64,000 nt of DNA from Acholoe squamosa (taxonomy: Eukaryota > Annelida > Polychaeta > Phyllodocida > Polynoidae): positions 682,001-746,000 of the forward strand of contig OX439049.1 of NCBI GenBank assembly GCA_949317995.1. The letters are read 5' to 3'. The position numbers were made by a program, and so were the translations under genes. Position 1 is the first letter of the stretch. Each line of letters begins with the position of its first letter. Below, piece by piece: positions 6,759-64,000 of this stretch. Under the pieces are notes generated by a model that saw nothing but the letters and a program-made list of their open reading frames with translations, ran no database searches and was not told the origin of the DNA.

Positions 6759-6770
6759 CCACTCCCCCAG
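6759..6770 (-). promoter_or_regulatory. Polypurine tract of the gypsy element
   Basis: Read on the minus strand this is CTGGGGGAGTGG directly abutting the 3' LTR, the expected position and purine bias of a plus-strand DNA primer. Confidence 0.85.
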
Positions 6771-11226: not shown

Positions 11227-11735
11227 GACTGGGGAATCGACCACGGGAGTAAACTACTCCTTTTTCCGGCTTTTACGGCGCCGGGGCCGGCACAAACGGA
11301 GTCTGTCTACCAGGAGACAGACTCTGGAGGAGCAGCGGGGGGTTTGCTTAGCCGGTAAAATCCAAGAAGGGAGCGAGCTCGACCGTCTTGGACGTTACCG
11401 AAAACAAATATGGCGACAGGCCAGCTTTCGTGACGTCATTTCCCCGCGGTCCGCGAGGTCACGAGAGGTCAGCCGAGACTGGACACGGTGACGTCATGCG
11501 GAAACGCACGTGCTACAGGCGGTACATCAACAAACTGATTGTTTTTAGGTAATTATCGCTCACCCCGATGACTCGACTGGGGATTTAAGTGGAGATTATG
11601 GAAAGCTTAAGCAAATCCACCGGATTATCCGTCCACTACCCATTGGTACATCATGCGGGGGCGACAAATAAGCCTTTAGGGTCAGTTGTCATCCGTTCCT
11701 CTAAATGTAAACATTACACTCGTTGTGTATACAGG
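11227..11735 (-). promoter_or_regulatory. pol-ORF3 spacer with two CRE palindromes (candidate internal promoter)
   Basis: This 509-bp spacer separates the pol stop from the third ORF's ATG. It carries two perfect TGACGTCA palindromes at 11431-11438 and 11489-11496, about 205-270 bp upstream of the ATG on the element strand. The surrounding DNA (11260-11510) is CpG- and GC-rich. Gypsy elements normally express downstream ORFs by splicing or from the LTR. An internal CREB/ATF-responsive promoter is an inference from these motifs; no TATA box was seen. Confidence 0.5.
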
Positions 11736-14700
11736 TTAGGTCACTGCAGTCCTCTGGGCAATTCGGGGGCTGCGGCGAACGTATCTCCCCTTCTCGGATA
11801 GTTCTTTATCGGACCTGACAGTCTGAAGAGCTTTCTCTAGGTGCTTCTTAGCCTTAGAAACACCTTTCCTCTTCTTTTTGTCTTCACCTGCCGAGACTTT
11901 TTTAACTCCCCCACGCTTAATCGGTGTTGGCGTGGGTGTTACTGATTCGGAACACTTTTTGGGTCTACCCTGACCACGCTTCACTGTAGTGTTCTTTACC
12001 TGGTCTATTATGCGATTCTGATTCAGGATCCTTTCGGAACCTTCACCATACATTTCTGTGGAGGTCTCCCTCCCAGACCATCTCCTTAATCTAGCCACAT
12101 TTGACTTATAGAGTCGACCAAGGTCAGATTTAATAATTACGGTACAATCACTGATAATTTGTGTTATAGTAAAGGGACCGTCCCAATTAGACGCTAATTT
12201 TATGTGTCTAAGTGGTTCATGTAATCTAAGGACTCTGTCTCCGGATTGGAATTTCCGATGTTTTAGATCGGTATCGTATCCTACTTTCTGCCATTTGGCA
12301 CTTTTCTCCAAATCAATTCGGACAGACTCATATGCTTTTCTAAATCTGTCTCTTAAACATTCCACAAAAACTACATGGCAAGGTAGTTCAGGGTCCATTC
12401 CTACGACTCCAAAAACTAGGTCAGCAGGCATTATCAAATCTTCTCCGAATACTAAAAGGTTCGGAGAACAATTTGTACTTGAATGTACTGTACTATTATA
12501 AGCATGTGTCACAAAATGGCATTGCTCATCCCAGTCATCCATATGTTCATTAACGAGTGACTTTAGGACTTGGATGAGGGTTCTATTGAACCTTTCCACC
12601 AATCCGTCGCTTTGTGGTCTATACGGATTGGTTCTAGTCTTGCAAATAGCCAAGTACTCGCACATACCCTGCCAGAGATTTGATTCGAATTCTCTGCCTT
12701 GGTCACTGTGTAACATTAATGGTACACCGAAGCTTAGTACCCAACCTTTTACAAAAGCTTCGGCACAAGTAATTGCTTTGTGGTCCGGTAGTGGAAATAC
12801 TTTAGTGTATTTCGTATAATAATCACACACTACCATCATACAGGTATTATCATTAGCGGTTGTATTAAATCCACTAATAATATCTACCCCGATTCTTGCG
12901 AATCTAACTCCGAAAAGTTCTTGGGATAGGGGAAGTTTGCCCATCCCGGGTCCGGGTTTGTTTTTACAACAATCCGGACAGGTGGTTACCCATCTTTGCA
13001 AGTCCCGTGTCATGCCAGGCCAATAGTATTTCTTGGAAAGTCGTGCTAGCGAGCGTTTCCTTCCGAAATGACCACTGCTCCGATGTCCATGACAGAAGTA
13101 CATAATGTCATGTCTCATGGCATGTGGTATCACCACTTGCATGATTCTACCACCATTATTACATGGCTTCCAACGGTATAACACGCCTTTCCGGACTTCA
13201 AGCTCGGTCCATTGAGCAAGAAACCTTCTCATTTCTCGATTTTCCAGAGAGACCTCTGGTCTAACTGGACGTATACCCTTTGGTACTAATTGCAGTAGCT
13301 GTGCAGTTATCGAGTCAGCTTCCTGGAAATGTCGTATGTGATCCATAGACCAATCCAGTATACTGGCAACTAGGGGTACGAATGGTCTTCGAATCCCTGC
13401 TAACACTGCCTTATGAGCTCCACAATCAGTACAATCCGGATTATCACATTTCCGGATTGGTATTCGAGACAAAGCATCAGCATTTAAATGCTTAACTCCG
13501 GGTCTATGCTGAATCTGTTGATGTTCAAGCCCATATTCGGATAAATGGGCTAGCCATCGGCCTAACATGCCTTCAGCATCTCGGAAGTTCAGTAGCCACC
13601 TTAAAGAGGAATGATCCGTACGCAAAGTAAAGTTCGTTCCCCATAGAAAATGTTTGAACTTCTTGGTATATACGACTACTGCTAACAACTCTCTTTTGGT
13701 TGTGCAGTAATTGCGCTGGGTCTTGCTCAGTGTATTGCTGGCAAAGGCAATTGGCACTTCTCTCCCATTTTGGACTTGCGAGAGAGCTGCACCAATGCTA
13801 TCATTACTAGCATCAGTATCCAGTATGAAATGATCCGTCTCATTCGGATATTGCAATACGGGAGTACTCGTGAACAGGTCTTTTAGCTTTTGGAAAGCGG
13901 TTTCCTGTTCATGCGTCCAAGGAAATTTTTCCTTGGTACTTCCTGGAGTCCAGTTAGCTATTGCTTGTAATGGGTAACTGACTCTAGAATAATTCGGAAT
14001 AAATTCCCTGTAATAGGAACAGAATCCTAAAAAGGACCTCACTTCTTTGGGTGTTTTAGGTCTATTCCAATTCGTAACTGATTCGATTTTTTCCGGATCA
14101 GCCTTTATTCCTTCATCACTGATGATGCGGCCCAAATAATTTATGGACTTTCTAAACATGTGGCATTTCTTAGGTTTCAATTTGAGACCATTTGAAATAA
14201 TACGTTCTAGTACCATTTTTAGGTTATTAGAACATTCTTCGAATGTTTTTCCGAAGACAATGACATCGTCTAGATATACAAGACATCTTTTCCACAATAA
14301 ATCACTTAGAATTGTTTCCATCATTGCTTCAAATGTTGCAGGTGCATTGCACAATCCAAACGGCATTACATTATATTGAAATAATCCAATATGACTTGAA
14401 AATGCAGTTTTCTCCATATCTGAAGGGTTCATTCCCACTTGCCAATAGCCTGATTGCAAGTCTAGGGTACAAAACCAACTGTTTCCTCCTAAGGAGTCAA
14501 TGGTTTCATCTATTCTCGGTAATGGATACGAATTCTTTTTCGTTATTCCATTCAACTTCCTGTAGTCTATACAGAAACGGATAGTACCGTCTTTTTTTGT
14601 TACCATACACACAGGACTACTCCATGGACTATTAGAAGGGACTATTACATCCTGTTCCAACATCTTATTTATTTCATCCTCAGCTACTCTCTTTTTTGCT

Positions 14701-15971
14701 AAGGGTAACCGTCTATACGGTATCTTAAAGGGTTCGGCATCCCCAGTATCTATTTTATGTAATACCTTATTTGTCGTACCTAGTTTTTCACCAGGTTTGG
14801 CAAAGGCAGTATGATACTGACAGAGCATATCATAGAACTCTTTCCGGTGTTCCGGATCTTCTAATGAAGTTTCTTCATACAACTTAAGTAAGTCTTCCGA
14901 AATTTCATCATCTCCTGTTACCTTCTGTAAGCTTAGCTTGCTATCCGTTACAGTTTCCGAAAGGGTCACGTTTCCAAAAACTTGTCCCTTTTTCAAGTAG
15001 ATAGTAGTGTTTCCAGTATTGGAGACAGGTACTACCGACCAGGATGCATTCGCTACTATCGTGTCTACAGAATTTAATCCAATACCTGACAAAGTAACTA
15101 CATCCGGTTCTATCACTGCAGGTTTGTTACGCATTGCAGGATCACTTCTTACAAGCACATCACAGGCTACTCCCGGAGGGATTCGCACAGTGTGTGCCAC
15201 ACTAGCCATACTGCTCACTTGTCTCAGTGCACATCTAACCTTCACGGGGTACGGGTATCTCACACTCAACACTCCTGTTTGGGGTTCCAATACAGCACCA
15301 TACAGGGATGCGAAATCTAACCCGAGTATCCCCTCATCTGCTATATCCGCAACGGTGGCGCTCATGACATAGTCATGTATACCATCTAACTGTAGTCTCA
15401 CACAAGTTCTACCATACATTTGCAAGGTACTGCCGTCGGCCGTCTGAGCACTTCCTCCCGATTTGAGAGTATCATGTTCATCCGGTATAAGGTCGTAGAA
15501 CCCCTTGGAGATACAAGAGTGGCTAGCTCCCGTATCCACAAGGAATTCGGCAGACCTTCCGTTAACAGTAAGGCAAACATACCACCGCCTTCCGTTTAGA
15601 ACAGAGGGCATGTCCGTGACAATCGGAACGTCATTTTTCACACCAGGAGTCAATCCACATCCTTTTAAGAATTCCAGACAAGGATGACCCGGGGGCAGGT
15701 GGGCACCACAGACCTTGGCTAACGAATAGCCGCCTGCCTCGTTACTGATATTGGGTTTCCCCTGTGCTCCCATAGCACCTGTTATATCAGCTTCCCTAAC
15801 CTTCCGGGTGTCTACAACCACCTCGGTGTTAGGCGATCTTGTTACTTCATGTGAACTATCATCACGGATGGTGATATCATGGCAAGATTTGTCACTGGGA
15901 TCCCCTTCTTTGCCCCTCGGGAGACCCCTCCTTAGTTTTCCTCTGTACTTACTCCAGAGACACTCTCCTGT
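11736..15971 (-). CDS. pol: Pol polyprotein: protease, reverse transcriptase, RNase H, integrase
   Basis: The frame is open from 15971 to a TAA at 11736 and overlaps the gag end in the -1 frame. The first in-frame start-like codon is a GTG at 15821, so synthesis as a Gag-Pol fusion is likely. Numbering from that GTG: aspartic protease VDTGAS (D96) with ILGLD at 165; RT with LDLQSGYWQ (D454) and YLDD at 516-519; RNase H D670, E711, D736 and D782; integrase zinc site H913, H918, C948, C951; DDE triad D980, D1040, E1076 with the 35-residue D-E spacing; GPF module (WDGPFTI) near 1213. No chromodomain is evident. The basic C-terminal tail holds an AT-hook-like KRGQGRPKK (about 1282). All catalytic residues are present, so the enzymes look functional. 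The RT-before-integrase order is that of Ty3/gypsy. Confidence 0.96.
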   Translation of the reverse strand, partial: TGECLWSKYRGKLRRGLPRGKEGDPSDKSCHDITIRDDSSHEVTRSPNTEVVVDTRKVREADITGAMGAQGKPNISNEAGGYSLAKVCGAHLPPGHPCLEFLKGCGLTPGVKNDVPIVTDMPSVLNGRRWYVCLTVNGRSAEFLVDTGASHSCISKGFYDLIPDEHDTLKSGGSAQTADGSTLQMYGRTCVRLQLDGIHDYVMSATVADIADEGILGLDFASLYGAVLEPQTGVLSVRYPYPVKVRCALRQVSSMASVAHTVRIPPGVACDVLVRSDPAMRNKPAVIEPDVVTLSGIGLNSVDTIVANASWSVVPVSNTGNTTIYLKKGQVFGNVTLSETVTDSKLSLQKVTGDDEISEDLLKLYEETSLEDPEHRKEFYDMLCQYHTAFAKPGEKLGTTNKVLHKIDTGDAEPFKIPYRRLPLAKKRVAEDEINKMLEQDVIVPSNSPWSSPVCMVTKKDGTIRFCIDYRKLNGITKKNSYPLPRIDETIDSLGGNSWFCTLDLQSGYWQVGMNPSDMEKTAFSSHIGLFQYNVMPFGLCNAPATFEAMMETILSDLLWKRCLVYLDDVIVFGKTFEECSNNLKMVLERIISNGLKLKPKKCHMFRKSINYLGRIISDEGIKADPEKIESVTNWNRPKTPKEVRSFLGFCSYYREFIPNYSRVSYPLQAIANWTPGSTKEKFPWTHEQETAFQKLKDLFTSTPVLQYPNETDHFILDTDASNDSIGAALSQVQNGREVPIAFASNTLSKTQRNYCTTKRELLAVVVYTKKFKHFLWGTNFTLRTDHSSLRWLLNFRDAEGMLGRWLAHLSEYGLEHQQIQHRPGVKHLNADALSRIPIRKCDNPDCTDCGAHKAVLAGIRRPFVPLVASILDWSMDHIRHFQEADSITAQLLQLVPKGIRPVRPEVSLENREMRRFLAQWTELEVRKGVLYRWKPCNNGGRIMQVVIPHAMRHDIMYFCHGHRSSGHFGRKRSLARLSKKYYWPGMTRDLQRWVTTCPDCCKNKPGPGMGKLPLSQELFGVRFARIGVDIISGFNTTANDNTCMMVVCDYYTKYTKVFPLPDHKAITCAEAFVKGWVLSFGVPLMLHSDQGREFESNLWQGMCEYLAICKTRTNPYRPQSDGLVERFNRTLIQVLKSLVNEHMDDWDEQCHFVTHAYNSTVHSSTNCSPNLLVFGEDLIMPADLVFGVVGMDPELPCHVVFVECLRDRFRKAYESVRIDLEKSAKWQKVGYDTDLKHRKFQSGDRVLRLHEPLRHIKLASNWDGPFTITQIISDCTVIIKSDLGRLYKSNVARLRRWSGRETSTEMYGEGSERILNQNRIIDQVKNTTVKRGQGRPKKCSESVTPTPTPIKRGGVKKVSAGEDKKKRKGVSKAKKHLEKALQTVRSDKELSEKGRYVRRSPRIAQRTAVT
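15932..15971 (-). promoter_or_regulatory. gag-pol overlap, candidate -1 frameshift region
   Basis: The pol frame is open for 40 nt before the gag TAA (15932-15934), in the -1 frame relative to gag. Just before the gag stop the sequence reads GGAAAAC in the gag frame (plus-strand gttttcc, 15935-15941). This is a plausible slip tract but not a perfect X-XXY-YYZ heptamer. The exact site is unproven. Confidence 0.55.
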
Positions 15972-18715
15972 CTACGAGGGACAGGTTTTTCAGCCATACA
16001 TTCTGGAGCATAATGCCCCAGTTTCTGGCATCTGAAACATCTCCTCTGGGATTTGTCAACTCTCGGTCTCTTTAGAGCTTCTGTTAATCCGGCTAATAAT
16101 GTTTCCATCATGTTAGTCGGAGCAACAGTGGCTGCTACAGTTGGGTTCGCCGTAGAGGCTACACTGCCAGGTTGAGTTGATCCGGAAGCTGTTTTACCAG
16201 CAACTGATCCTCCTCTCCCTCTCGAATGTACTTTCCTATACCGCTTTTGTCGGTAATATTTTCCAGCTACATGCACTGAACCAATATAATCTCCGTTTTC
16301 ATCGGAGACATATTCATCATTCTCATCAACTTCATTCGATTCAACCGGAGCTAATTGGGAAGTATCGTATACCGGAGCAGGTGTACCTCCGTATTGGAAT
16401 GGAGCTGCTCTTATTGGATTAGGTCCGAGACCTACCAGACGTTTCTTCATGTCGTGTCCATCAATTGCTATGAACAGATCACTGAAGGAAGTGTCATCTT
16501 TCCAAGAGTCCCAGACCACTTGCTTGTGATCCGGATCACGCAATCCACTGTAGAATTGTATAAACAATTCTTGTAGATAACAATCATCATCATGAGCCCA
16601 ATTTGGACGTGCTTTCGAAAGCAAGTCCTGTAGCTCCAAACCAAAGACTTTGTGTGATTCTTTAGGTTTTTGTGTCCTCTTCTTAAAGCTTACCCACGGA
16701 TCTTCTCTAACGATTGATCCGAAAAGGTATGCGGCACATTCGACCAATTGATCATAGGTACCATATATTCCGTAAGCTGCTCTCCATTGGTTGAGAGCTA
16801 CTTTTCCGCCTTTATTTAACCAACAAATCAAATATGGCAGAGCTTCTTCTTTTGTCCAGCCACTACAATTGACTTCGTCAACAAAAGCTTGATACCTGTC
16901 CTTCCATGGATCATTAGAATCATATGGAGGGGGTATCCGTGCCTGCCTACGTGCCGGATTATTACATCCGCGTAGTCTATCTGCTTCTCGCATGCTCCAG
17001 TTCATGACTTCCATGCCGTCTGCTCCCTTTCGGTAGCAGTCAATGCCAAGGTTTTGTATACATTGGCTTCTATCAAAGATGGTTTGCATCCCTGCAGGCA
17101 TAGAAGTTCTCCTGTTAGGTTTCCTGCCATCTCCTCCTGATCCTGATCCTCCGAATCCGGATCCTCCTGGGCCGCCTGGAGGGTTTCCTCCTGGTGGACC
17201 ATTATTATTATAGCCTCCAGATGAACCACCAGGGTATCCACTATTGTGACCGGTGTTTCCAGAAGAAGCATATCTAGGGTAAGAATCATTTTGATTCCAT
17301 CCCTGGTTATAGCTATTACCATTCTGATAATTGCCACTTCCCGATGGATTATAATTATTTCTATATCCATAGGAAGATGTTCTCGGTTGGTACGTACCGC
17401 CGTTGATATTGTTTTGTGGCGGATTTGGTCTCGGAAAACGTCCATCAGTAGGACCATTACCAGAACCTGGGGGTGGATTCGGTAATCTTGGTACTGCTGG
17501 TGTACTGTGGCCGGGTTGGGGGAAATATGAAGGTGGTGTCAACATATGTCTCATTGGTCCGGGTGCTCTTGGTTGTGCCACGGGTGAATTATTATTATTC
17601 CCTGTAGCACCATCGTGAGTCGCTTTGATTTTGTGACTCAAATCTGGTATGGGTGGTGCTGGTCCTATCGTATCCAGCATTGGAACTACTGGTTTAGATG
17701 CGGTTCCATTTACTGCAGCATTATCCGGTTTGTTATAGATTCCGGATACCACATTCTTGTCAGCCCCATCATCAACGAATGGGCTGTATCTAATTGGGGT
17801 TGCATCTTTAGATGTCTTTCCCAACATTGTAGATACCACAGCTGGGTCTATATTACCTATAGTTAACTGGGCTGCTTCTACATATTTATCTAGAGTTATT
17901 GCAGTGGTCTGCAATTCCTGAAGCTCATTCGTGAGTTTCTGTCTATCCTCCTCCAGTTGTTTGTTGTAAGCTATGATGCCTACCCGGATGGTTTCATTAT
18001 CTTCAGCTTGTTTACTGCACTGAAGTTTCAATTTATCCAACTCCTCCTGATAATGGCGAATTTCGGATTCGAATTTTGTCTTATCAAGGTTTAGTTGGTC
18101 GTTCGTATCTATGTATGTTTGGATACGAATGTGCCTATTATCATATTCTTTATTGAATGAATCTCTCATAGATTGAAGTTTTAGTTCTTCACTCTCGAGT
18201 TCTTTCATGTACTCGCTCCTTCTGGCTTCGAATTCCTTTCGCATGCCAGTTAGGTCCTCTTCCATTTGAAGTTTTTCATGCAATACTTCATCCTTAGCTT
18301 TGACCAAGGTATTTAAATTCTCGTTCAAAGTTACATAAGTTTCATTCAACAACAGGACATCCGGTCGTTTTAATTCTTCACCTTCCGGTACCGCATAGGT
18401 TAAGTCGCCATCTATAGCGCTATAATCTAATATTGGTAATTCGGGCCTGGGTAACCTATAAGGTAGTTCTCCGAATGTTACCCTTTTTCGCATTGGTGCC
18501 GGATGTTCTGGGTTAGTACTACCACCGACTTCGAACATCGAATCACATAATTCGTCAACAATTGAATGCTGGCCTATTAAGTTACTATGTCTCTGTATGG
18601 ACTGTTCGCGTCGTACAGAGTCTGGCAGATTCTCTTCACTATCATTATAGTGGGGTCCGGGATCTCTCCAGGATGCTGATTCTGCATCTTGTGAGTCCGA
18701 ATGGGCTTGGAGCAT
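15932..18715 (-). CDS. gag: Gag polyprotein with long coiled coil and CCHC zinc knuckle
   Basis: This structural protein of the virus-like particle is first in the element. The frame is open up to 18829 (a GTG); the first in-frame ATG is at 18715, giving about 927 residues. Counting from 18829: an acidic N-terminus, a long heptad-rich coiled coil (about 155-320), a low-complexity Asn/Gly/Pro/Tyr/Ser-rich segment (about 400-570), a capsid-like region (about 580-800, Trp-rich, like retrotransposon Gag), a basic Arg/Ser/Gly stretch (860-880), and a CCHC knuckle with C931, C934, H939, C944. It is much longer than typical gypsy Gag. The coiled coil and low-complexity segment account for the excess. 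It ends in TAA and pol follows in the -1 frame. The choice of start is uncertain because the ATG context is weak. Confidence 0.9.
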   Translation of the reverse strand: MLQAHSDSQDAESASWRDPGPHYNDSEENLPDSVRREQSIQRHSNLIGQHSIVDELCDSMFEVGGSTNPEHPAPMRKRVTFGELPYRLPRPELPILDYSAIDGDLTYAVPEGEELKRPDVLLLNETYVTLNENLNTLVKAKDEVLHEKLQMEEDLTGMRKEFEARRSEYMKELESEELKLQSMRDSFNKEYDNRHIRIQTYIDTNDQLNLDKTKFESEIRHYQEELDKLKLQCSKQAEDNETIRVGIIAYNKQLEEDRQKLTNELQELQTTAITLDKYVEAAQLTIGNIDPAVVSTMLGKTSKDATPIRYSPFVDDGADKNVVSGIYNKPDNAAVNGTASKPVVPMLDTIGPAPPIPDLSHKIKATHDGATGNNNNSPVAQPRAPGPMRHMLTPPSYFPQPGHSTPAVPRLPNPPPGSGNGPTDGRFPRPNPPQNNINGGTYQPRTSSYGYRNNYNPSGSGNYQNGNSYNQGWNQNDSYPRYASSGNTGHNSGYPGGSSGGYNNNGPPGGNPPGGPGGSGFGGSGSGGDGRKPNRRTSMPAGMQTIFDRSQCIQNLGIDCYRKGADGMEVMNWSMREADRLRGCNNPARRQARIPPPYDSNDPWKDRYQAFVDEVNCSGWTKEEALPYLICWLNKGGKVALNQWRAAYGIYGTYDQLVECAAYLFGSIVREDPWVSFKKRTQKPKESHKVFGLELQDLLSKARPNWAHDDDCYLQELFIQFYSGLRDPDHKQVVWDSWKDDTSFSDLFIAIDGHDMKKRLVGLGPNPIRAAPFQYGGTPAPVYDTSQLAPVESNEVDENDEYVSDENGDYIGSVHVAGKYYRQKRYRKVHSRGRGGSVAGKTASGSTQPGSVASTANPTVAATVAPTNMMETLLAGLTEALKRPRVDKSQRRCFRCQKLGHYAPECMAEKPVPRRQESVSGVSTEEN

Positions 18716-18841
18716 TAGCGATCCATTTCCATTCTCTTGGGCAAGTGATTGCCCTGCTGGGTTAGCTTCCCTAAGGGTGTCTAACCCATGTACTAGCCGT
18801 TCGGACGTTATAACGTCCGGGCTATACACCAGAATTAACTG

Positions 18842-18853
18842 GTCACGGCACCA
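18842..18853 (-). promoter_or_regulatory. Primer-binding site of the gypsy element (tRNA-His type)
   Basis: On the element strand TGGTGCCGTGAC starts one nucleotide after the 5' LTR. Its complement GTCACGGCACCA equals the 3' end of animal cytosolic tRNA-His plus CCA, as I remember that tRNA. The match stops after 12 nt. Confidence 0.75.
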
Positions 18854-18854
18854 G

Positions 18855-19231
18855 TGTAAGGGTTTGTGGCCTTACGGACCTGGGGGGTTCGGGTCTTACG
18901 ATTCGGAAAGAAAGAGTAAGACAGTATTCCAAGTGTATGCCAACGGTTAGGTTTATTACTTAATGCACACTCACGGCTGCCGAATGATATCAAAGGGGCA
19001 GCTAATATTAAAAGACAGTGGTTTACATAGTGTGGAGGCCAGAAGGGCCTCTGACGTAGCGGCTGAGCCCTGGGCTTTATATACGGACCCAGGTGTTCGT
19101 CGTCAGATGTCCCCACAGACCCGGATCGGTGCTGCCACCTATCCGGAACCTGAGGAACGTCCGACGACTCGACTCACCCGCCACGTCAGACGGTACCCAA
19201 CTCCTATGGTTTAGTAAAGTGTACCTCTACA
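18855..19231 (-). repeat. 5' LTR of the gypsy element
   Basis: 377 bp, matching 6382-6758 without a difference that I could see. It provides the promoter for the genomic RNA (see the TATA entry) and carries AATAAA (plus-strand tttatt at 18952-18957). ATAT follows at 19232-19235, matching 6378-6381. Confidence 0.95.
19076..19083 (-). promoter_or_regulatory. TATA box in the 5' LTR
   Basis: Plus-strand tttatata reads TATATAAAG on the element strand in a GC-rich setting. Transcription would start about 25-30 bp downstream, near 19045-19050, giving U3 of roughly 185 bp. Confidence 0.65.
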
Positions 19232-32179: not shown

Positions 32180-35020
32180 TGATTCACACCGGGTCAGGGC
32201 CGGTTATGATGCACCGATGCAGTGCCCTTTATATGACAGATTAAGGACAACCAATGTGCATGGTGCATTAATGTACTAGAAGCCCTTTATATGACAGGAT
32301 TAAGGACAACCAATGTGCATGGTGCATTAATGCACTAGAAGCCCTTTATATGACAGGATTAAGGACAACCAATGTGCATGGTGCATTAATGTACTAGAGG
32401 CCCTTTATATGACAGATTAAGGACAACCAATGTGCATGGTGCATTAATGCACTAGAAGCCCTTTATATGACAGATTAAGGACAACCAATGTGCATGGTGC
32501 ATTAATGTACTAGAGGCCCTTTATATGACAGGATTAAGGTTAATCAGTGAGGTGCATTAATGCACTAGAAGCCCTTTATATGACAGGATTAAGGTCAATC
32601 AGTGAGGTGCATTAATGCACTAGAAGCCCTTTATATGACAGGATTAAGGACAACCAATGTGCATGGTGCATTAATGTACTAGAGGCCCTTTATATGACAG
32701 GATTAAGGACAACCAATGTGCATGGTGCATTAATGTACTAGCGGCCCTTTATATGACAGGATTAAGGTCAATCAGTGAGGTGCATTAATACACTAGAGGT
32801 CCTTTATATGACAGGATTAAGGACAACCAATGTGCATGGTGCATTAATGTACTAGAGGCCCTTTATATGACAGGATTAAGGACAACCAATGTGCATGGTG
32901 CATTAATGCACTAGAAGCCCTTTATATGACAGGATTAAGGACAACCAATGTGCATGGTGCATTAATGCACTAGAAGCCCTTTATATGACAGGATTAAGGA
33001 CAACCAATGTGCATGGTGCATTAATGCACTAGAAGCCCTTTATATGACAGGATTAAGGACAACCAATGTGCATGGTGCATTAATGTACTAGAGGCCCTTT
33101 ATATGACAGGATTAAGGTTAATCAGTGAGGTGCATTAATGCACTAGAAGCCCTTTATATGACAGGATTAAGGACAACCAATGTGCATGGTGCATTAATGT
33201 ACTAGAGGCCCTTTATATGACAGGATTAAGGACAACCAATGTGCATGGTGCATTAATGTACTAGCGGCCCTTTATATGACAGGATTAAGGTCAATCAGTG
33301 AGGTGCATTAATACACTAGAGGTCCTTTATATGACAGGATTAAGGACAACCAATGTGCATGGTGCATTAATGTACTAGAGGCCCTTTATATGACAGGATT
33401 AAGGACAACCAATGTGCATGGTGCATTAATGCACTAGAAGCCCTTTATATGACAGGATTAAGGACAACCAATGTGCATGGTGCATTAATGCACTAGAAGC
33501 CCTTTATATGACAGGATTAAGGACAACCAATGTGCATGGTGCATTAATGCACTAGAAGCCCTTTATATGACAGGATTAAGGACAACCAATGTGCATGGTG
33601 CATTAATGCACTAGATGCCCTTTATATGACAGGATTAAGGTTAATCAGTGAGGTGCATTAATGTACTAGAGGCCCTTTATATGACAGGATTAAGGACAAG
33701 CAATGTGCATGGTGCATTAATGCACTAGCGGCCCTTTATATGACAGGATTAAGGTCAATCAGTGAGGTGCATTAATGTACTAGAGGCCCTTTATATGACA
33801 GGATTAAGGTCAATCAGTGAGGTGCATTAATGCACTAGAAGCCCTTTATATGACAGGATTAAGGTCAATCAGTGAGGTGCATTAATGCACTAGAAGCCCT
33901 TTATATGAGAGGATTAAGGTCAATCAGTGAGGTGCATTAATGCACTAGAAGCCCTTTATATGACAGGATTAAGGTCAATCAGTGAGGTGCATTAATGCAC
34001 TAGAAGCCCTTTATATGAGAGGATTAAGGACAACCAATGTGCATGGTGCATTAATGTACTAGCGGCCCTTTATATGACAGGATTAAGGTCAATCAGTGAG
34101 GTGCATTAATGCACTAGAAGCCCTTTATATGAGAGGATTAAGGACAACCAATGTGCATGGTGCATTAATGCACTAGAGGCCCTTTATATGAGAGGATTAA
34201 GGACAACCAATGTGCATGGTGCATTAATGTACTAGCGGCCCTTTATATGACAGGATTAAGGTCAATCAGTGAGGTGCATTAATGCACTAGCGGCCCTTTA
34301 TATGACAGGATTAAGGACAACCAATGTGCATGGTGCATTAATGCACTAGAGGCCCTTTATATGAGAGGATTAAGGACAACCAATGTGCATGGTGCATTAA
34401 TGTACTAGCGGCCCTTTATATGACAGGATTAAGGTCAATCAGTGAGGTGCATTAATGCACTAGAAGCCCTTTATATGACAGGATTAAGGACAACCAATGT
34501 GCATGGTGCATTAATGTACTAGAGGCCCTTTATATGACAGGATTAAGGACAACCAATGTGCATGGTGCATTAATACACTAGAGGCCCTTTATATGACAGG
34601 ATTAAGGTCAATTAGTGAGGTGCATTAATGCACTAGAAGCCCTTTATATGACAGGATTAAGGACAACCAATGTGCATGGTGCATTAATGCACTAGAAGCC
34701 CTTTATATGACAGGATTAAGGACAACCAATGTGCATGGTGCATTAATGCACTAGCGGCCCTTTATATGACAGGATTAAGGTTAATCAGTGAGGTGCAATA
34801 ATGTACTAGCGGCCCTTTATATGACAGGATTACGGACAACCAATGTGCATGGTGAATTAATGTACTAGCGGCCCTTTATATGACAGGATTAAGGTTAATC
34901 AGTGAGGTGCAATAATGTACTAGCGGCCCTTTATATGACAGGATTAAGGACAAGCAGTGTGCATGGTGCATTAATGCACTAGAGGCCCTTTATATGACAG
35001 GATTAAGGACAACCAATCAG
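32180..35020. repeat. Interleaved 59-bp and 55-bp minisatellite array with family B motifs
   Basis: Roughly 49 units beginning gccctttatatgacaggatt and ending tgcattaatgcactaga. Two interior types alternate irregularly: one with aaccaatgtgcatgg (59 bp) and one with caatcagtgagg (55 bp). The unit's gtgcattaatgcac and caaccaatgtgcatg are variants of family B MITE motifs. The block containing tagcggccc then tacactagaggtcc recurs about 520 bp apart (near 32739 and 33261), which indicates duplication of multi-unit blocks. Confidence 0.93.
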
Positions 35021-47601: not shown

Positions 47602-48078
47602 TTAGGCCTGAAAAAAAAAAAAAAAAAGTTGTGTTCAGGTATCCCGACCGACCCTAATTTTTTGGCCCGACCCTAATTTTTTTTTTTTTTTTTTTTTTTT
47701 TAGAAAAGTTCCAAGAAAAATGTCAATATATACCGTAAATTTTTTTACTATAGAATAAAGAGAAAAATTTGATCCCAAAACCGGCTTTTAGGATTTCCCT
47801 GAACTCTCCCCCCCGCTTATGACCGGGGCCGGCTTGTGACCGAGGATTTACGGTAGGCATGTTTGGTATCAAATTAAAGGCCCATGGTCTCAGAAATGCT
47901 ACTAGCTTAAAATAACATTTTATAGTTTTTTAATTTGGTTAGTATGTTGAGCCATTTTTTTATGTAATTTTTGGCAGGTTTCGTGTTCCAGGAACTTAAA
48001 AAAAAAAAAATCCGACATACCTACCCTACTTTTTTGAGCAATGTTACCTGAACACAAGAATAGTTTTTTTAGGCCTTA
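47602..48078. mobile_element. Family C MITE with a nested TACCGTAA element
   Basis: Ends are ttaggcctgaaaaaa...gttgtgttcaggta and ttacctgaacacaag...ttttttaggcctta, an inverted repeat. Its interior has the family ccctaattttttgg motifs. A 125-bp element (47731-47855) with inverted TACCGTAAAT/ATTTACGGTA ends is inserted in it. Other copies: 49356-49650 and 55280-55570. Confidence 0.7.
47731..47855. mobile_element. 125-bp TACCGTAA MITE nested in family C
   Basis: Starts TACCGTAAAT and ends GATTTACGGTA. The interior has ccggcttttagg and cttatgaccgggg, like the right part of 26941-27609, so it belongs to that subfamily. Confidence 0.7.
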
Positions 48079-48100
48079 GGTAGCATTAAATGTATGCATA

Positions 48101-48326
48101 TGTATAGGTCAGCAGAAAACGTCTTTTGGAGAAACTGGGACTCGAACCCGGGACCCTCTAACTTCGAAGCGGAAGCTCTACCCCTGAGCTACTTCCCCTG
48201 GCCTGACGTTCTCTACCTTCCACCTACACCTGGATCGGTATGACACACACTAGGGGAGCAATGAGGACCAGGTAACCGGCTGCTGAGTGTCGGTCTACCA
48301 GGTAGAGGGATTTCCGGTCCCCTACA
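48101..48326 (-). repeat. TRIM LTR copy 1 (3'-most in element orientation)
   Basis: 226 bp; differs from the other two at about nine positions, including its terminus (TATACA instead of CTCTACA on the element strand) and the anticodon region of the tRNA-like gene. As the 3'-terminal LTR it is followed by the CATA duplication. Confidence 0.85.
48128..48198 (-). tRNA. tRNA-like gene in TRIM LTR 1
   Basis: 71-nt cloverleaf with acceptor GGGGAAG/TTTCTCC and the same boxes as the copies in LTR 2 and 3. Anticodon-loop TTCGAAG would place CGA at the anticodon. One extra anticodon-stem mismatch and a T-stem change (CCCAG) make this copy less sound than the other two. Confidence 0.5.
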
Positions 48327-48336
48327 CTCCTCCCAA
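48327..48336 (-). promoter_or_regulatory. Polypurine tract of the TRIM
   Basis: Minus strand TTGGGAGGAG directly precedes the LTR start TGTAGGGG. The second internal region has TTGTGAGGAG at the same place (48783-48792). Confidence 0.65.
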
Positions 48337-48541
48337 CTAGCTTCAACCTAGGGTTCCTACAGACTCGCAGGACCAGTACTGAGTCACATCCAGGTCGTAC
48401 GAGTTTTCTGTTCCCAGAAACTCCTGGAGGCGCCCCCTGTTTCCAAGGCCCCCAGTACTAGCAAGCCGAAGCGTATCTGTGTCATACCGGCCCAGGCACC
48501 GAGTTCCCCGATCCCCCTATTAAGTTGCGCGAGGACCGGCT

Positions 48542-48555
48542 CGGTTTCTCCACCA
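48542..48555 (-). promoter_or_regulatory. TRIM primer-binding site, first internal region
   Basis: Minus strand TGGTGGAGAAACCG lies one nucleotide after LTR 2. Its complement CGGTTTCTCCACCA equals the last 10 nt of the LTR-encoded tRNA-like body, plus A, plus an added CCA. Confidence 0.75.
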
Positions 48556-48556
48556 G

Positions 48557-48782
48557 TGTAGAGGTCAGTGGAAAACGTCTTTTGGAGAAACCGGGACTCG
48601 AACCCGGGACCCTCCAACTTCAAAGCGGAAGCTCTACCCCTGAGCTACTTCCCCTGGCCTGACGTTCTCTACCTTCCACCTACACCTGGATCGGTATGAC
48701 ACACACTAGGGGAGCAGTGACGACCAGGTAACCGGCTCCTGAGAGTCGGTCTACCAGGTAGAGGGATTTCCGGTCCCCTACA
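48557..48782 (-). repeat. TRIM LTR copy 2
   Basis: 226 bp, differing from LTR 3 at about two positions. It is shared by the two LTR-internal-LTR units. Confidence 0.9.
48584..48654 (-). tRNA. tRNA-like Pol III gene in TRIM LTR 2
   Basis: Minus strand: acceptor GGGGAAG pairs with TTTCTCC including G3-U70; D stem GCTC/GAGC; anticodon loop TTTGAAG (UGA at 34-36); T stem CCGGG/CCCGG; discriminator A; no encoded CCA. The A box TAGCTCAGGGG and B box GGTTCGAGTCC match Pol III consensus. TTTT follows about 8 nt after the 3' end (gacGTTTTCC) and could terminate Pol III. The body resembles tRNA-Ala (including G3-U70), but the anticodon reads Ser and there is no long variable arm. The anticodon stem has one mismatch and one G-U. 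A primer or promoter role fits better than decoding. Confidence 0.65.
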
Positions 48783-48997
48783 CTCCTCACAACTAGCTTC
48801 AACCTAGGGTTCCTACAGACTCGCAGGACCAGTACTGAGTCACATCCAGGTCGTACGAGTTTTCTGTTCCCAGAAACTCCTGGAGGCGCCCCCTGTTTCC
48901 AAGGCCCCCAGTACTAGCAAGCCGAAGCGTATCTGTGTCATACCGGCCCAGGCACCGAGTTCCCCGATCCCCCTATTAAGTTGCGCGAGGACCAGCT

Positions 48998-49011
48998 CGG
49001 TTTCTCCACCA
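48998..49011 (-). promoter_or_regulatory. TRIM primer-binding site, second internal region
   Basis: Same TGGTGGAGAAACCG sequence, one nucleotide after LTR 3 (the 5'-most LTR in element orientation). This is the PBS that would be used by a transcript starting in LTR 3. Confidence 0.75.
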
Positions 49012-49012
49012 G

Positions 49013-49238
49013 TGTAGAGGTCAGTGGAAAACGTCTTTTGGAGAAACCGGGACTCGAACCCGGGACCCTCCAACTTCAAAGCGGAAGCTCTACCCCTGAG
49101 CTACTTCCCCTGGCCTGACGTTCTCTACCTTCCACCTACACCTGGATCGGTATGACACACACTAGGGGAGCAATGACGACCAGGTAACCGGCTCCTGAGA
49201 GTCGGTCTACGAGGTAGAGGGATTTCCGGTCCCCTACA
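49013..49238 (-). repeat. TRIM LTR copy 3 (5'-most in element orientation)
   Basis: 226 bp with TG...CA ends, followed outside by the CATA duplication. Its two differences from LTR 2 lie outside the tRNA-like gene. Confidence 0.9.
49040..49110 (-). tRNA. tRNA-like Pol III gene in TRIM LTR 3
   Basis: Identical to the copy in LTR 2 by eye: G3-U70 acceptor, A box, B box, UGA at the anticodon position, and TTTT downstream. This copy is in the 5' LTR and its RNA would pair with the adjacent PBS. Confidence 0.65.
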
Positions 49239-49245
49239 CATATAT

Positions 49246-49731
49246 ATACCGTAGGTGCCCATTTAAGTACAGGGTCGCAAATAGGTGCCAGTCAATTAAG
49301 CGCCAGGGGTATAGGGGAATTGAAATAAGCTTAGGCACTAAAAACTCTATTCAAATAAGGCCTAAAACAAAAATTCTTGTGTTCAGGTAACATAGCTCAA
49401 AAAATTAGGGTAGGTAGGTCGGAATTTATTTTTCTTTTTAGATTTTTTTTTTAGTTCTGAATGCCGAAAACTGCCAAAAATGATAAAAAAAAAACATGGC
49501 TCAACATATCAACTAAATTAAAAAAATTTAAAAATGTTGGTTATTTCAAGCTTTTTTTTGGGGGGGTCATTTTTACCAAAATTTAGGGTCGGGCCAAAAA
49601 TTTAGGGTCGGTTGGGATACCTTTACACAACTATTTTTTTTTAGGCCTAAGTGCTTTTATTGAATAAGTGCCGGGGGTACAGGGGTATTGAAATTAAAGT
49701 ACCCAGGCGGTTAAACGGGCCACTACGATGT
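49246..49731. mobile_element. TACCGTA-ended element containing a nested family C MITE
   Basis: Ends taccgtaggtgcccatttaa and ttaaacgggccactacgatgta (in parts) form an imperfect inverted repeat. The interior aataagtgccgggggtacagg mirrors aagcgccaggggtatagggg. The family C copy interrupts it at 49356-49650. Confidence 0.55.
49356..49650. mobile_element. Family C MITE, 295 bp
   Basis: Ends taaggcctaaaac...ttgtgttcaggtaac and ctttacacaact...tttttaggcctaa. The interior has ttagggtaggtaggtcgg and its partners. Confidence 0.68.
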
Positions 49732-57688: not shown

Positions 57689-57900
57689 GTAGAGGTTGGT
57701 GAAAATGTGAAACTGGGACTCGAACCCGGGCCCTCCAACTTCGAAGCGGCTGCTCTACCTTTGAGCTACTTCCCCTGGCCTGATGTTCTCACCTTCCAAC
57801 CACACCTGGATCGGTATGATACACACTAGGGGGCAGTGTTTACCCGGAGACCGTCCCCTGGGGGTCAGTCAACCGAGTACGGGGAATTACTGCCCCTACA
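57689..57900 (-). repeat. Diverged solo LTR of the TRIM family
   Basis: 212 bp from TGTAGAGG to CCCCTACA on the plus strand. It is alignable along its length with the LTRs at 48101-49238: same tRNA-like head, cctgatgttctc/cctgacgttctc, ctggatcggtatga, acacactagggg, and the ccctaca end. No internal region is present, so it probably arose by LTR-LTR recombination. No clear target duplication remains. Confidence 0.75.
57706..57775 (-). tRNA. tRNA-like relic in the solo LTR
   Basis: It keeps the B box GGTTCGAGTCC and D-arm (GCTC...GAGC) of the TRIM tRNA-like gene, but the 3' acceptor strand has become TTTCACA, which pairs poorly with GGGGAAG. The anticodon loop is TTCGAAG. Confidence 0.45.
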
Positions 57901-57959: not shown

Positions 57960-60900
57960 CCAGCACCCTGTATTCATGTATGCAAATAGTCAGCCTTGTA
58001 TTCATACATACAAACAGCCAGCCCTGTATTCATACATGCAAATAGCCAGCCCTGTATTCATACATGCAAATAGCCAGCCCTGTATTCATACATGCAAATA
58101 GCCAGCCCTGTATTCATACATGCAAACAGCCAGCACCCTGTATTCATACATGCAAATAGCCAGCCCTGTATTCATACATACAAATAGCCAGCCCTGTATT
58201 CATACATACAAACAGCCAGCCCTGTATTCATACATACAAATAGCCAGCCTTGTATTCATACATACAAATAGCCAGCCCTGTATTCATACATACAAATAGC
58301 CAGCACCCTGTATTCATGTATGCAAATAGCCAGCCCTGTATTCATACATGCAAATAGCCAGCACCCTGTATTCATACATACAAATAGCCAGCCCTGTATT
58401 CATACATGCAAATAGCCAGCACCCTGTATTCATACATGCAAATAGCCAGCCCTGTATTCATACATGCAAATAGCCAGCCTTGTATTCATACATGCAAATA
58501 GCCAGCCCTGTATTCATACATACAAATAGCCAGCACCCTGTATTCATGTATGCAAATAGCCAGCCCTGTATTCATGTATGCAAATAGCCAGCCCTGTATT
58601 CATACATGCAAATAGCCAGCCCTGTATTCATACATGCAAATAGCCAGCCTTGTATTCATATATGCAAATAGCCAGCCTTGTATTCATGTATGCAAATAGC
58701 CAGCCTTGTATTCATACATACAAATAGCCAGCACCCTGTATTCATGTATGCAAATAGCCAGCCTTGTATTCATACATACAAATAGCCAGCCCTGTATTCA
58801 TGTATGCAAATAGCCAGCACCCTGTATTCATGTATGCAAATAGCCAGCCCTGTATTCATGTATGCAAATAACCAGCCCTGTATTCATGTATGCAAATAGC
58901 CAGCCCTGTATTCATACATGCAAATAGCCAGCCCTGTATTCATGTATGCAAATAACCAGCCCTGTATTCATGTATGCAAATAACCAGCCCTGTATTCATG
59001 TATGCAAATAGCCAGGCCTGTATTCATACATACAAATAACCAGCCCTGTATTCATGTATGCAAATAGCCAGCCCTGTATTCATACATGCAAATAGCCAGC
59101 CCTGTATTCATACATACAAATAGCCAGCACCCTGTATTCATGTATGCAAATAGCCAGCCCTGTATTCATACATGCAAATAGCCAGCACCCTGTATTCATA
59201 CATGCAAATAGCCAGCCCTGTATTCATACATGCAAATAGCCAGCACCCTGTATTCATACATACAAATAGCCAGCACCCTGTATTCATACGTACAAATAGC
59301 CAGCCCTGTATTCATACATGCAAACAGCCAGCCCTGTATTCATACATACAAATAGCCAGCCCTGTATTCATACATGCAAATAGCCAGCCCTGTATTCATA
59401 CATGCAAATAGCCAGCCCTGTATTCATACATGCAAATAGCCAGCCCTGTATTCATACATGCAAATAGCCAGTACCCTGTATTCATGTATGCAAATAGCCA
59501 GCCCTGTATTCATACATGCAAATAGCCAGCCCTGTATTCATACATACAAATAGCCAGCCCTGTATTCATACATGTAAATAGCCAGCCTTGTATTCATGTA
59601 TGCAAATAGCCAGTACCCTGTATTCATGTATGCAAATAGTCAGCCCTGTATTCATGTATGCAAATAGCCAGCACCCTGTATTCATACATGCAAATAGCCA
59701 GCCCTGTATTCATACATACAAATAGCCAGCCCTGTATTCATACATGTAAATAGCCAGCCCTGTAGTCATGTATGCAAATAGCCAGTACCCTGTATTCATA
59801 CATACAAATAGCCAGCACCCTGTATTCATACATACAAATAGCCAGCCCTGTATTCATACATGCAAATAGCCAGCATCCTGTATTCATACATGCAAATAGC
59901 CAGCCCTGTATTCATGTATGCAAATAGCCAGCCCTGTATTCATACATACAAATAGCCAGCCCTGTATTCATACATGCAAATAGCCAGCCCTGTATTCATA
60001 CATGTAAATAGCCAGCCTTGTATTCATACATACAAATAGCCAGCCCTGTATTCATACATACAAATAGCCAGCACCCTGTATTCATACATACAAATAGCCA
60101 GCCCTGTATTCATACATACAAATAGCCAGCACCCTGTATTCATACATACAAATAGCCAGCACCCTGTATTCATACATACAAACAGCCAGCCCTGTATTCA
60201 TACATACAAATAGCCAGCCCTGTATTCATACATACAAATAGCCAGCACCCTGTATTCATGTATACAAATAGCCAGCCCTGTATTCATACATACAAATAGC
60301 CAGCACCCTGTATTCATACATACAAATAGCCAGCCCTGTATTCATACATACAAATAGCCAGCACCCTGTATTCATACGTACAAATAGCCAGCCCTGTATT
60401 CATACATACAAATAGCCAGCCCTGTATTCATACATGCAAATAGTCAGCCCTGTATTCATGTATACAAATAGCCAGCCCTGTATTCATGTATACAAATAGC
60501 CAGCCCTGTATTCATACATACAAATAGCCAGCCCTGTATTCATACATGCAAATAGTCAGCCCTGTATTCATGTATACAAATAGTCAGCCCTGTATTCATG
60601 TATACAAATAGCCAGCCCTGTATTCATACATACAAATAGCCAGCACCCTGTAGTCATACATGCAAATAGCCAGCCCTGTATTCATACATGCAAATAGCCA
60701 GCACCCTGTATTCATACATGCAAACAGCCAGCCCTGTATTCATACATGCAAATAGCCAGCCTTGTATTCATACATGCAAATAGCCAGCACCCTGTATTCA
60801 TGTATACATGCAAATAGCCAGCCCTGTATTCATACATGCAAATAGCCAGCCCTGTATTCATACATGCAAACAGCCAGCCCTGTATTCATACATGCAAATA

Positions 60901-63900
60901 GTCAGCCTTGTATTTATACATAGAAATAGCCAGCACCCTGTATTCATACATGCAAATAGCCAGCACCCTGTATTCATACATGCAAATAGCCAGCCTTGTA
61001 TTCATGTATGCAAATAGCCAGCCCTGTATTCATACATGCAAATAGTCAGCCCTGTATTCATGTATGCAAATAGACAGCCCTGTATTCATGTATGCAAATA
61101 GCCAGCCCTGTATTCATACATGCAAATAGCCAGGCCTGTATTCATGTATGCAAATAGCCAGCACCCTGTATTCATACATGCAAATAGCCAGCCCTGTATT
61201 CATACATGCAAATAGCCAGCGCCCTGTAGTCATACATGCAAATAGCCAGCCCTGTATTCATGTATGCAAATAGCCAGCACCCTGTATTCATACATGCAAA
61301 TAGCCAGCACCCTGTATTCATACATGCAAATAGCCAGCCCTGTAGTCATACATGCAAATAGCCAGCACCCTGTATTCATACATGCAAATAGCCAGCCCTG
61401 TATTCATGTATGCAAATAGCCAGCACCCTGTATTCATACATGCAAATAGCCAGCCCTGTATTCATACATGCAAATAGCCAGCACCCTGTATTCATGTATA
61501 CAAATAGCCAGCCCTGTATTCATGTATGCAAATAGCCAGCCCTGTATTCATACATACAAATAGCCAGCCTTGTATTCATACATGCAAATAGCCAGCACCC
61601 TGTATTCATACATACAAATAGCCAGCCCTGTATTCATACATACAAATAGCCAGCCTTGTATTCATACATGCAAATAGCCAGCCCTGTATTCATACATGCA
61701 AATAGCCAGCCCTGTATTCATGTATGCAAATAGCCAGCACCCTGTATTCATACATACAAATAGCCAGCCTTGTATTCATACATACAAATAGCCAGCCCTG
61801 TATTCATACATGCAAATAGCCAGCACCCTGTATTCATACATACAAATAGCCAGCCCTGTATTCATACATACAAATAGCCAGCCTTGTATTCATACATGCA
61901 AATAGCCAGCACCCTGTATTCATACATACAAATAGCCAGCCCTGTATTCATACATACAAATAGCCAGCCTTGTATTCATACATGCAAATAGCCAGCCCTG
62001 TATTCATACATGCAAATAGCCAGCCTTGTATTCATACATACAAATAGTCAGCCCTGTATTCATGTATGCAAATAGCCAGCCCTGTATTCATGTATGCAAA
62101 TAGCCAGCCCTGTATTCATACATGCAAATAGCCAGCCCTGTTTTCATACATGCAAATAGCCAGCCTTGTATTCATATATGCAAATAGCCAGCCTTGTATT
62201 CATGTATGCAAATAGCCAGCCTTGTATTCATACATACAAATAGCCAGCACCCTGTATTCATGTATTCAAATAGCCAGCCTTGTATTCATACATACAAATA
62301 GCCAGCCCTGTATTCATGTATGCAAATAGCCAGCACCCTGTATTCATGTATGCAAATAGCCAGCACCCTGTATTCATGTATGCAAATAACCAGCCCTGTA
62401 TTCATGTATGCAAATAACCAGCCCTGTATTCATGTATGCAAATAACCAGCCCTGTATTCATGTATGCAAATAGCCAGCCCTGTATTCATACATACAAATA
62501 ACCAGCCCTGTATTCATGTATGCAAATAGCCAGCCCTGTATTCATACATGCAAATAGCCAGCCCTGTATTCATACATACAAATAGCCAGCACCCTGTATT
62601 CATGTATGCAAATAGCCAGCCCTGTATTCATACATACAAATAGCCAGCCCTGTATTCATACATGCAAATAGCCAGCACCCTGTATTCATACATGCAAATA
62701 GCCAGCCCTGTATTCATACATGCAAATAGCCAGCACCCTGTATTCATACATACAAATAGCCAGCACCCTGTATTCATACGTACAAATAGCCAGCCCTGTA
62801 TTCATACATGGAAACAGCCAACCCTGTATTCATACATACAAATAGCCAGCCCTGTATTCATACATGCAAATAGCCAGCCCTGTATTCATACATGCAAATA
62901 GCCAGCACCCTGTATTCATGTATGCAAATAGCCAGCCCTGTATTCATACATACAAATAGTCAGCCCTGTATTCATACATGCAAATAGCCAGCACCCTGTA
63001 TTCATACATGCAAATAGCCAGCCCTGTATTCATACATACAAATAGCCAGCCCTGTATTCATACATGTAAATAGCCAGCCTTGTATTCATGTATGCAAATA
63101 GCCAGTACCCTGTATTCATGTATGCAAATAGCCAGCACCCTGTATTCATACATGCAAATAGCCAGCCCTGTATTCATACATACAAATAGCCAGCACCCTG
63201 TATTCATGTATGCAAATAGCCAGCCCTGTATTCATACATACAAATAGCCAGCCCTGTATTCATACATGCAAATAGCCAGCACCCTGTATTCATACATGCA
63301 AATAGCCAGCCCTGTATTCATACATACAAATAGCCAGCCCTGTATTCATACATGTAAATAGCCAGCCTTGTATTCATGTATGCAAATAGCCAGTACCCTG
63401 TATTCATGTATGCAAATAGCCAGCCCTGTATTCATACATACAAATAGCCAGCCCTGTATTCATACATGTAAATAGCCAGCCCTGTATTCATAAATGCAAA
63501 TAGCCAGCCCTGTATTCATACATACAAATAGCCAGCCCTGTATTCATACATACAAATAGCCAGCACCCTGTATTCATGTATGCAAATAGCCAGCCCTGTA
63601 TTCATACATACAAATAGCCAGCCCTGTATTCATACATGCAAATAGCCAGCACCCTGTATTCATACATGCAAATAGCCAGCCCTGTATTCATACATACAAA
63701 TAGCCAGCCCTGTATTCATACATGCAAATAGCCAGCCCTGTATTCATACATGCAAATAGCCAGCCCTGTATTCATACATGTAAATAGCCAGCCTTGTATT
63801 CATGTATGCAAATAGCCAGCCCTGTATTCATACATGCAAATAGCCAGCCCTGTATTCATACATGCAAATAGCCAGCCCTGTATTCATACATACAAATAGC

Positions 63901-64000
63901 CAGCCCTGTATTCATACATGCAAATAGCCAGCCCTGTATTCATACATGCAAATAGCCAGCCCTGTATTCATACATGTAAATAGCCAGCCTTGTATTCATA
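57960..64000. repeat. 28/30-bp satellite, >6 kb, running off the window
   Basis: More than 200 copies of cagccctgtattcatacatg plus caaatagc (28 bp), or the cagcaccctg form (30 bp). Units differ at a few two-state sites (catacatg, catgtatg or catacata; ccctg or cttg). Blocks are duplicated: the stretch around 59172 recurs at 62662, and that around 58657 recurs at about 62173. This gives a higher-order period of about 3.5 kb. The 60-80-codon ORFs are by-products of the repeat. Confidence 0.96.

Follow-up and report, generated by a model that had tools for sequence, protein, structure and literature searches.

A miniature LTR retroelement (TRIM) in the genome of the polynoid annelid Acholoe squamosa is best explained as a Helenus-type TRIM with a self-encoded primer, which probably relies on a Gypsy-type element for its movement in trans and whose LTR would double as a primer gene. 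The element lies at positions 48101-49238 of the 64,000-nucleotide stretch of DNA that was analysed (hereafter, the window). This reading is based on the anatomy of the element, the complementarity between its primer binding site (PBS) and the tRNA-like sequence of its own LTR, which includes a non-encoded CCA, the way in which both covary from family to family, and joints of PBS and tRNA-like in integrated copies, all of which are observed. Since the tRNA-like and the PBS change together between families, the primer is probably the element's own and not a borrowed host tRNA.

The original prediction of a miniature LTR retroelement at this place is confirmed, on the minus strand, and there is more than one element, in a tandem of the form LTR-internal-LTR-internal-LTR with three LTRs and two internal regions. 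The tandem has a period of 456 nt, made up of an LTR of 226 nt (TG..CA) and an internal region of 230 nt, and is composed of the following features:

49013..49238, minus strand: LTR 1, 5'-most in element orientation, 226 nt, TGTAGGGG...CTCTACA
48557..48782, minus strand: LTR 2, 226 nt
48101..48326, minus strand: LTR 3, 226 nt, 96% identical to LTR 1
48783..49012, minus strand: internal region 1, 230 nt
48327..48556, minus strand: internal region 2, 230 nt
48998..49011, minus strand: PBS TGGTGGAGAAACCG, one base beyond LTR 1
48542..48555, minus strand: PBS TGGTGGAGAAACCG, one base beyond LTR 2
48783..48793, minus strand: polypurine tract (PPT) GTTGTGAGGAG, ahead of LTR 2
48327..48337, minus strand: PPT GTTGGGAGGAG, ahead of LTR 3
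49239..49242, no strand: target site duplication CATA, copy 1
48097..48100, no strand: target site duplication CATA, copy 2

The base between the LTR end and the PBS is C (CTCTACA-C, followed by TGGTGGAGAAACCG). As is typical of TRIMs, one unit of LTR, internal region and LTR (226, 230 and 226 nt) is shorter than 1000 bp, coding capacity is absent, with no stop-to-stop frame of at least 110 aa overlapping 48101-49238, and a PBS lies beside the 5' LTR and a PPT beside the 3' LTR. The tandem is located within a larger inverted repeat (window 47617-49642), perhaps a foldback or MITE-like element, whose arms match at 89% (47998-48078/49356-49436) and 91% (47617-47681/49578-49642).

Each LTR contains a tRNA-like sequence accompanied by putative Pol III signals, among them two stretches that resemble the consensus of the A box and B box:

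49039..49110, minus strand: tRNA-like of LTR 1, 72 nt, 3' end CGGTTTCTCC-A (ARAGORN, Rfam RF00005)
48583..48654, minus strand: tRNA-like of LTR 2 (ARAGORN, Rfam RF00005)
48127..48198, minus strand: tRNA-like of LTR 3, decayed, CAGTTTCTCC-A (ARAGORN, Rfam RF00005)
49093..49103, also 48637-48647 and 48181-48191, minus strand: A-box-like TAGCTCAGGGG
49050..49060, also 48594-48604 and 48138-48148, minus strand: B-box-like GGTTCGAGTCC
49028..49031, also 48572-48575 and 48116-48119, minus strand: TTTT, putative Pol III terminator, 8-11 nt past the discriminator base of the tRNA-like

A tRNA-like in every LTR had been predicted and is found, with the expected 3' end CGGTTTCTCC-A in two of the three and not in the decayed third. 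The three reach 52.8, 52.8 and 40.2 bits against Rfam RF00005 (gathering score 29), and ARAGORN calls a tRNA in 67 of the 71 distinct tRNA-likes of other copies. The ARAGORN labels Ser, Cys, Phe and Leu were rejected as true isotypes, as they track anticodons that differ between families in one scaffold, and a plain cluster of host tRNA genes was rejected as well, as the tRNA-likes lie in LTRs sharing flanks and trailer. A TTTT within 17 nt past the discriminator is present at 125 of 140 distinct tRNA-like ends, against a background in the window LTR of 14 out of 209 17-nt windows, those over the terminator run counted; a T4 directly past the tRNA-like would suit a short Pol III transcript.

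Pairing in the acceptor, D and T arms is found in 95-97% of cells and in the anticodon arm in 78%, with the anticodon-arm pair 30-38 forming in just one of 47 tRNA-like sequences, so that the sound cloverleaf, anticodon arm included, of a host tRNA gene is not found. The lowest-energy fold of a window copy is not the cloverleaf either. Due to the poor anticodon arm and this fold, maturation of the tRNA-like is not assured, which speaks against a role as primer; at the same time, the pattern of arms would fit a primer better than a decoding tRNA, as a primer needs the acceptor/T half. Covariation within the cloverleaf is weak and was rejected as evidence. Elsewhere in the window, a weak tRNA match (57705-57775, minus strand, 29.3 bits against the RF00005 gathering score of 29) contains a perfect B box GGTTCGAGTCC at 57716-57726.

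The PBS TGGTGGAGAAACCG is complementary over 14 nt to the 3' end of the tRNA-like, the discriminator A and CCA, in agreement with the original prediction. The complement, CGGTTTCTCCACCA, is exact at 48542-48555 and 48998-49011. The LTR versions of this end read CGGTTTCTCCAAAA (two copies) and CAGTTTCTCCAAAA (one copy), and therefore the matched CCA is absent from LTR DNA, as had also been proposed. By our own arithmetic, 11 matching nucleotides beyond TGG have a probability of about 4^-11 at a fixed position, and a chance complement is rejected by the exact 14-nt match together with the covariation between families. The match stops at 14 nt, with PBS position 15 being A where the tRNA-like predicts G; this A is found in 28 of 28 copies of the first family, which counts against self-priming, and in 40 of the 42 joints carrying both features, by the place of the listed letters. 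The 8 nucleotides originally given for tRNA-Ala look low, as there are presumably animal tRNA-Ala genes ending in ATTCTCCA, with which the contiguous match would be 10 nt.

By the anatomical features tested, the window element is a Helenus. The original prediction did not name Helenus, and TRIMs with a tRNA-like LTR have already been described under this name (also 'TRIMp3') in fungi, animals and one plant, the match between PBS and tRNA-like being what is new relative to them within the parts of that description drawn on here (Kojima, 2024; PMC10886601). The features in common with these parts are short length, absence of proteins, tRNA-derived sequence with A and B boxes within each LTR, PBS and PPT, 4-bp duplications as in animals, tandem arrays (there for LTR-11_DR) and several tRNA-like types per genome (PMC10886601). 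The PBSs of animal Helenus, which also have 4-bp duplications, are reported there to fit the 3' ends of host tRNAs, and in its section 3.6 no complementarity between the LTR tRNA-like and the PBS was found (PMC10886601). In contrast, the PBS of the window element matches its own tRNA-like over 14 nt and covaries with it, and 75 joints match 10-14 of 14, so that this reported, although not definitional, trait is not shared.

Small-RNA genes with a Pol III promoter inside a TRIM LTR are also known from Cassandra and Ajax, according to the same parts of the literature, and the PBS of Ajax is said there to fit tRNA-Leu, and therefore its LTR small RNA is not the primer (PMC10886601). The LTRs of both carry 5S rRNA sequence, in contrast to the tRNA-like of the window element. 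In Tf1, the primer is a cut piece of the 5' end of the element's own mRNA, whereas that of the window element would be a CCA-tailed tRNA-like RNA from the LTR. An origin of the primer in the element itself would be shared with the Tf1 type, as portrayed in the sections of the bivalve TRIM paper used here (PMC6934838). These sections also describe biv-TRIM, an animal TRIM of similar size in which no canonical PBS was identified, and contain no element matching that of the window (PMC6934838).

In its own genome, which comprises 1.48 Gb in 63 contigs, the 456-nt unit has at least 80 matches, 40 of 3704 candidates having been scored. An exact 4-bp repeat, as in animal Helenus, is present in 18 of the 25 entries with both outer ends read and absent from seven. 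A pattern for tRNA ends with TTTCTCCA and a next base other than A, which demanded the 3' end of the tRNA-like but not the PBS, gave 2261 matches (reversed control, 0), from which 30 loci and 18 further stretches were examined. Further families were found at these loci, with different LTRs and in some cases different anticodon arms. The sequence beyond the PBS reads AGCCGGTCC, AGTGGTCC, AGTTGGTCC and AGCATCC in four subfamilies (A-D), the first three being related; while differing to varying degrees there, the four keep an identical PBS and tRNA-like end. The match to the own tRNA-like in the 42 joints with both features is 14 (21 joints), 13 (16), 12 (3) or 11 (2), out of 14. Three loci (L071, L072 and L079) have quite different anticodon arms (CAACGGTCTCGAGATTCGG; GCACTCGACTTGCAAGCATG) and the same CGGTTTCTCC-A end, which the search pattern required, as if tRNA bodies had been swapped and the primer end kept. 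Conservation inside family A was rejected as a sign of selection for being uninformative, the primer-matching columns (0.943) showing no higher conservation than other parts of the LTR (0.957 for positions 1-128). One pattern search of viral contigs gave two matches, two further ones of viral contigs gave none, and a pattern search of genome contigs gave none.

Covariation between the PBS and the tRNA-like 3' end across copies, which had been suggested as a check of the original prediction, exists at the level of families. The 153 distinct LTR ends with a tRNA-like in all fetched DNA are bimodal in the match to their own PBS, with 75 at 10-14, 78 at 1-9 and few between the two modes. Loci not chosen by PBS provide 41 of the 75, all of them A-D joints, with matches of 14 (20), 13 (16), 12 (3) and 11 (2). 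When partners are shuffled among the 75, the mean match is 12.50 and the maximum 12.88, compared with 13.35 observed, and 0 of 10000 shuffles reach the observed value; as copies inside a family share descent, the independent events number two and not 75.

The two events come from a search for an LTR end followed by TGG in which PBS position 5 is not G (162 matches, control 0, 100 listed). Forty of the listed loci were examined: 20 of varied kinds, and then the following 20 of the listing whose letters are CGCCGACCCCTACA, A or G, TGGTA. The first 20 include seven copies of family G, one joint of family H (L113), two A-type copies with a changed position 5 (L106 and L107) and L112, which is without a tRNA-like, and the remaining nine resemble solo LTRs next to which TGG occurs by chance; the second 20 are all family G. 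In family G, the tRNA-like ends in CGGTTTCCCT-A and the PBS reads TGGTAGGGAAACCG, so that PBS positions 5 and 7 differ from A-D, as do their partners, tRNA positions 72 and 70. The 27 copies examined match their own tRNA-like at 14 (17 copies), 13 (7), 12 (2) and 7 (1), that is, at 12-14 of 14 in 26, the outlier L127 having a 2-nt insertion in the PBS; the A-D type of tRNA-like is matched by the family G PBS at 12 at most. Position 5 was selected by the search and position 7 was free, and the latter is G in 26 of 27 family G copies versus A in all 53 A-D joints (41 at loci selected without regard to the PBS, 11 retrieved with a PBS pattern fixing position 7 and one from the position-5 search).

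Copies of family H, described by the pattern TTTTCGCCGACC.CTACA.TGG, have a tRNA-like that ends in CGGTGTTTCC-A and whose body we take to be Ala-like. The PBS of L113, the sole copy with an internal region, reads TGGTTGAAACACAG against the predicted TGGTGGAAACACCG (12 of 14), and its positions 8 and 10 follow its tRNA-like, which adds two further matched changes. What speaks against the reading is that the covariation consists of two family-level changes, one of them seen in one copy, and that both families were retrieved by means of PBS position 5.

The window also contains a near-complete Gypsy LTR retrotransposon (6382-19231, minus strand):

18855-19231 and 6382-6758, minus strand: Gypsy LTRs, 377 nt, with the 4-bp duplication ATAT
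15932-18871, minus strand: gag-like frame with a sub-threshold zinc knuckle
11736-15971, minus strand: pol
8278-11253, minus strand: extra 991-aa frame after pol, without Pfam match

As regards mobilisation by Gypsy, a trait of animal Helenus families, this element has a target duplication of the same 4-bp length as the TRIM, a TGTAG start and a one-base gap before its PBS, but the PBS itself differs, reading TGGTGCCGTGACC, which we take to fit tRNA-His. A partner Gypsy with the PBS of the TRIM was not found, which counts against self-priming. A search with the gag-like protein gave no match, and the closest relatives of the pol are 84% identical and below, mostly from metagenome sequences. 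Just beyond the 3' LTR of the Gypsy element lies a short run of TAACCC telomere-like repeats (6291-6316), and the window is rich in minisatellites, at 57966-64000 and elsewhere, for example with a 59-bp unit at 32224-35017 and a 28-bp unit repeated about 211 times.

Alternatively, one or more host tRNAs could be the real primer and the LTR tRNA-like could have been captured from it, e.g. by a reverse transcriptase copying past the PBS into the primer, in which case LTR and PBS would match each other only through the host tRNA that both resemble. The presumed fit of the Gypsy PBS to tRNA-His speaks for such a use of host tRNAs. So does the assignment of animal Helenus PBSs to host tRNA 3' ends in the cited parts of Kojima (2024; PMC10886601). 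However, three tRNA-like 3' ends, each with a matching PBS, would require about three host tRNAs, and a common copying from a host tRNA is weakened by the family covariation. By eye, no free host gene is seen in the 30 loci taken from the 2261 TTTCTCCA matches: the LTR trailer is present in 28, its first bases alone in L042, and L040 runs toward an LTR start. As the rest were examined in part (18 further stretches), a host gene may exist among the other matches; on balance, host priming appears unlikely.

Joints between the PBS and an antisense tRNA-like were found with a PBS pattern in which position 15 is not A (72 matches, control 0), all 12 loci examined having G there. In five of them (L081, L085, L088, L090 and L091), the PBS is continued by the reverse complement of a tRNA-like, which is of the family of the adjoining LTR in L081, L088, L090 and L091; in L085, no tRNA-like is left in the LTR alongside. 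The other seven are without run-through, although in three of them the match to the own tRNA-like is extended, to 19 nt in L083, 20 in L084 and 19 in L092. In L084, three bases past the PBS depart from its family and resemble the tRNA-like instead, as though a longer piece of the primer had been copied.

Longer reads of such joints, L093 to L097, show how far the antisense arms extend, and two of the five run-through loci have 4-bp duplications. L094 and L095 consist of a full sense LTR, one base, TGG, and the antisense tRNA-like and LTR, which reaches back as far as LTR nucleotide 1. The 4-bp repeats CATT and AGGG stand outside them, and a stretch is missing from one arm of L095. They are palindromic inserts with LTR nucleotide 1 at both sides, and a product whose two ends are both LTR 5' ends is apparently accepted by the integrase. 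In L093, which is further rearranged, and L097, whose sense LTR is cut short, the antisense arm continues into PPT and internal sequence, while L096, an element with two LTRs, has antisense tRNA-like of about 55 nt lying between its PBS and its internal region, and flanks (CCAG/CCTG) that differ by one base. Other inverted rearrangements, in L043 and L053, are without a PBS-tRNA joint. Read backwards, the joints correspond to the LTR up to the tRNA-like, CCA, one base and antisense LTR, which is what priming at the PBS by the CCA end of an LTR RNA should produce. As the PBS can also serve as the template for CCA, snap-back of DNA or a template switch would yield identical letters, and the joints suggest that tRNA-like and PBS pair during the life cycle while being silent on which molecule primed.

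The arms of L093 and L097, which pass the tRNA-like and the LTR and enter PPT and internal sequence, as though primer and element RNA formed one continuous molecule, would also fit priming in cis, in which a long element RNA is cut at the tRNA-like of the 3' LTR, gains CCA and primes at the PBS, with no free tRNA involved. This is decidedly improbable, given that DNA snap-back or template switching produces equal joints, that the T4 past the tRNA-like fits a short independent transcript and that L094 and L095 end exactly at LTR nucleotide 1. Least probable is that the tRNA-like is a Pol III promoter only, a role proposed for Helenus in the cited parts of its description (PMC10886601), and that the inverted joints come from the PBS snapping back during DNA synthesis. 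The letters of L094 and L095 are those expected when plus-strand strong-stop DNA snaps back at its PBS. However, the joint change of PBS and tRNA-like between families and the CCA complement in the PBS, with CCA absent from the LTR, are left unexplained, and the T4 past the tRNA-like is expected to stop Pol III short of the internal region.

If the primer is self-encoded, Pol III would make a short pre-tRNA from the tRNA-like in the LTR, with its A box, B box and T4, and this transcript would be trimmed at both ends and receive CCA from a host enzyme. Through its CCA end, it would then form a 14-nt duplex with the PBS in the RNA of the element and prime minus-strand DNA, and when the 3' end of the tRNA-like changes in a family, the PBS would change too. 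A Gypsy-type partner may move the TRIM in trans. The self-priming put forward in the original prediction has gained partial support from the family-level covariation and the direct PBS-tRNA joints; transcription, processing by RNase P/Z and CCA addition are steps that we infer.

The reverse transcription of LTR elements is taught as using a host tRNA or, in Tf1-like elements, a cut piece of their own mRNA, and the literature searched on the topic contains no description of an LTR element supplying its own tRNA primer. Judged from the sequences compared, it is likely that these TRIMs belong to a group of LTR retroelements that encode their own primer, with a lock and key for each family that is independent of the host tRNA pool, and cis-priming by CCA-tailed RNA may occur in some events. 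If this is true, an own tRNA primer would be a third way of priming reverse transcription, tRNA-bearing LTRs would gain a purpose beyond promoter function, and the free evolution of a PBS would be explained. Matched pairs of PBS and tRNA could be swapped in an assay, and, as a warning, retroelement primers may account for many of the tRNA genes predicted in such genomes.
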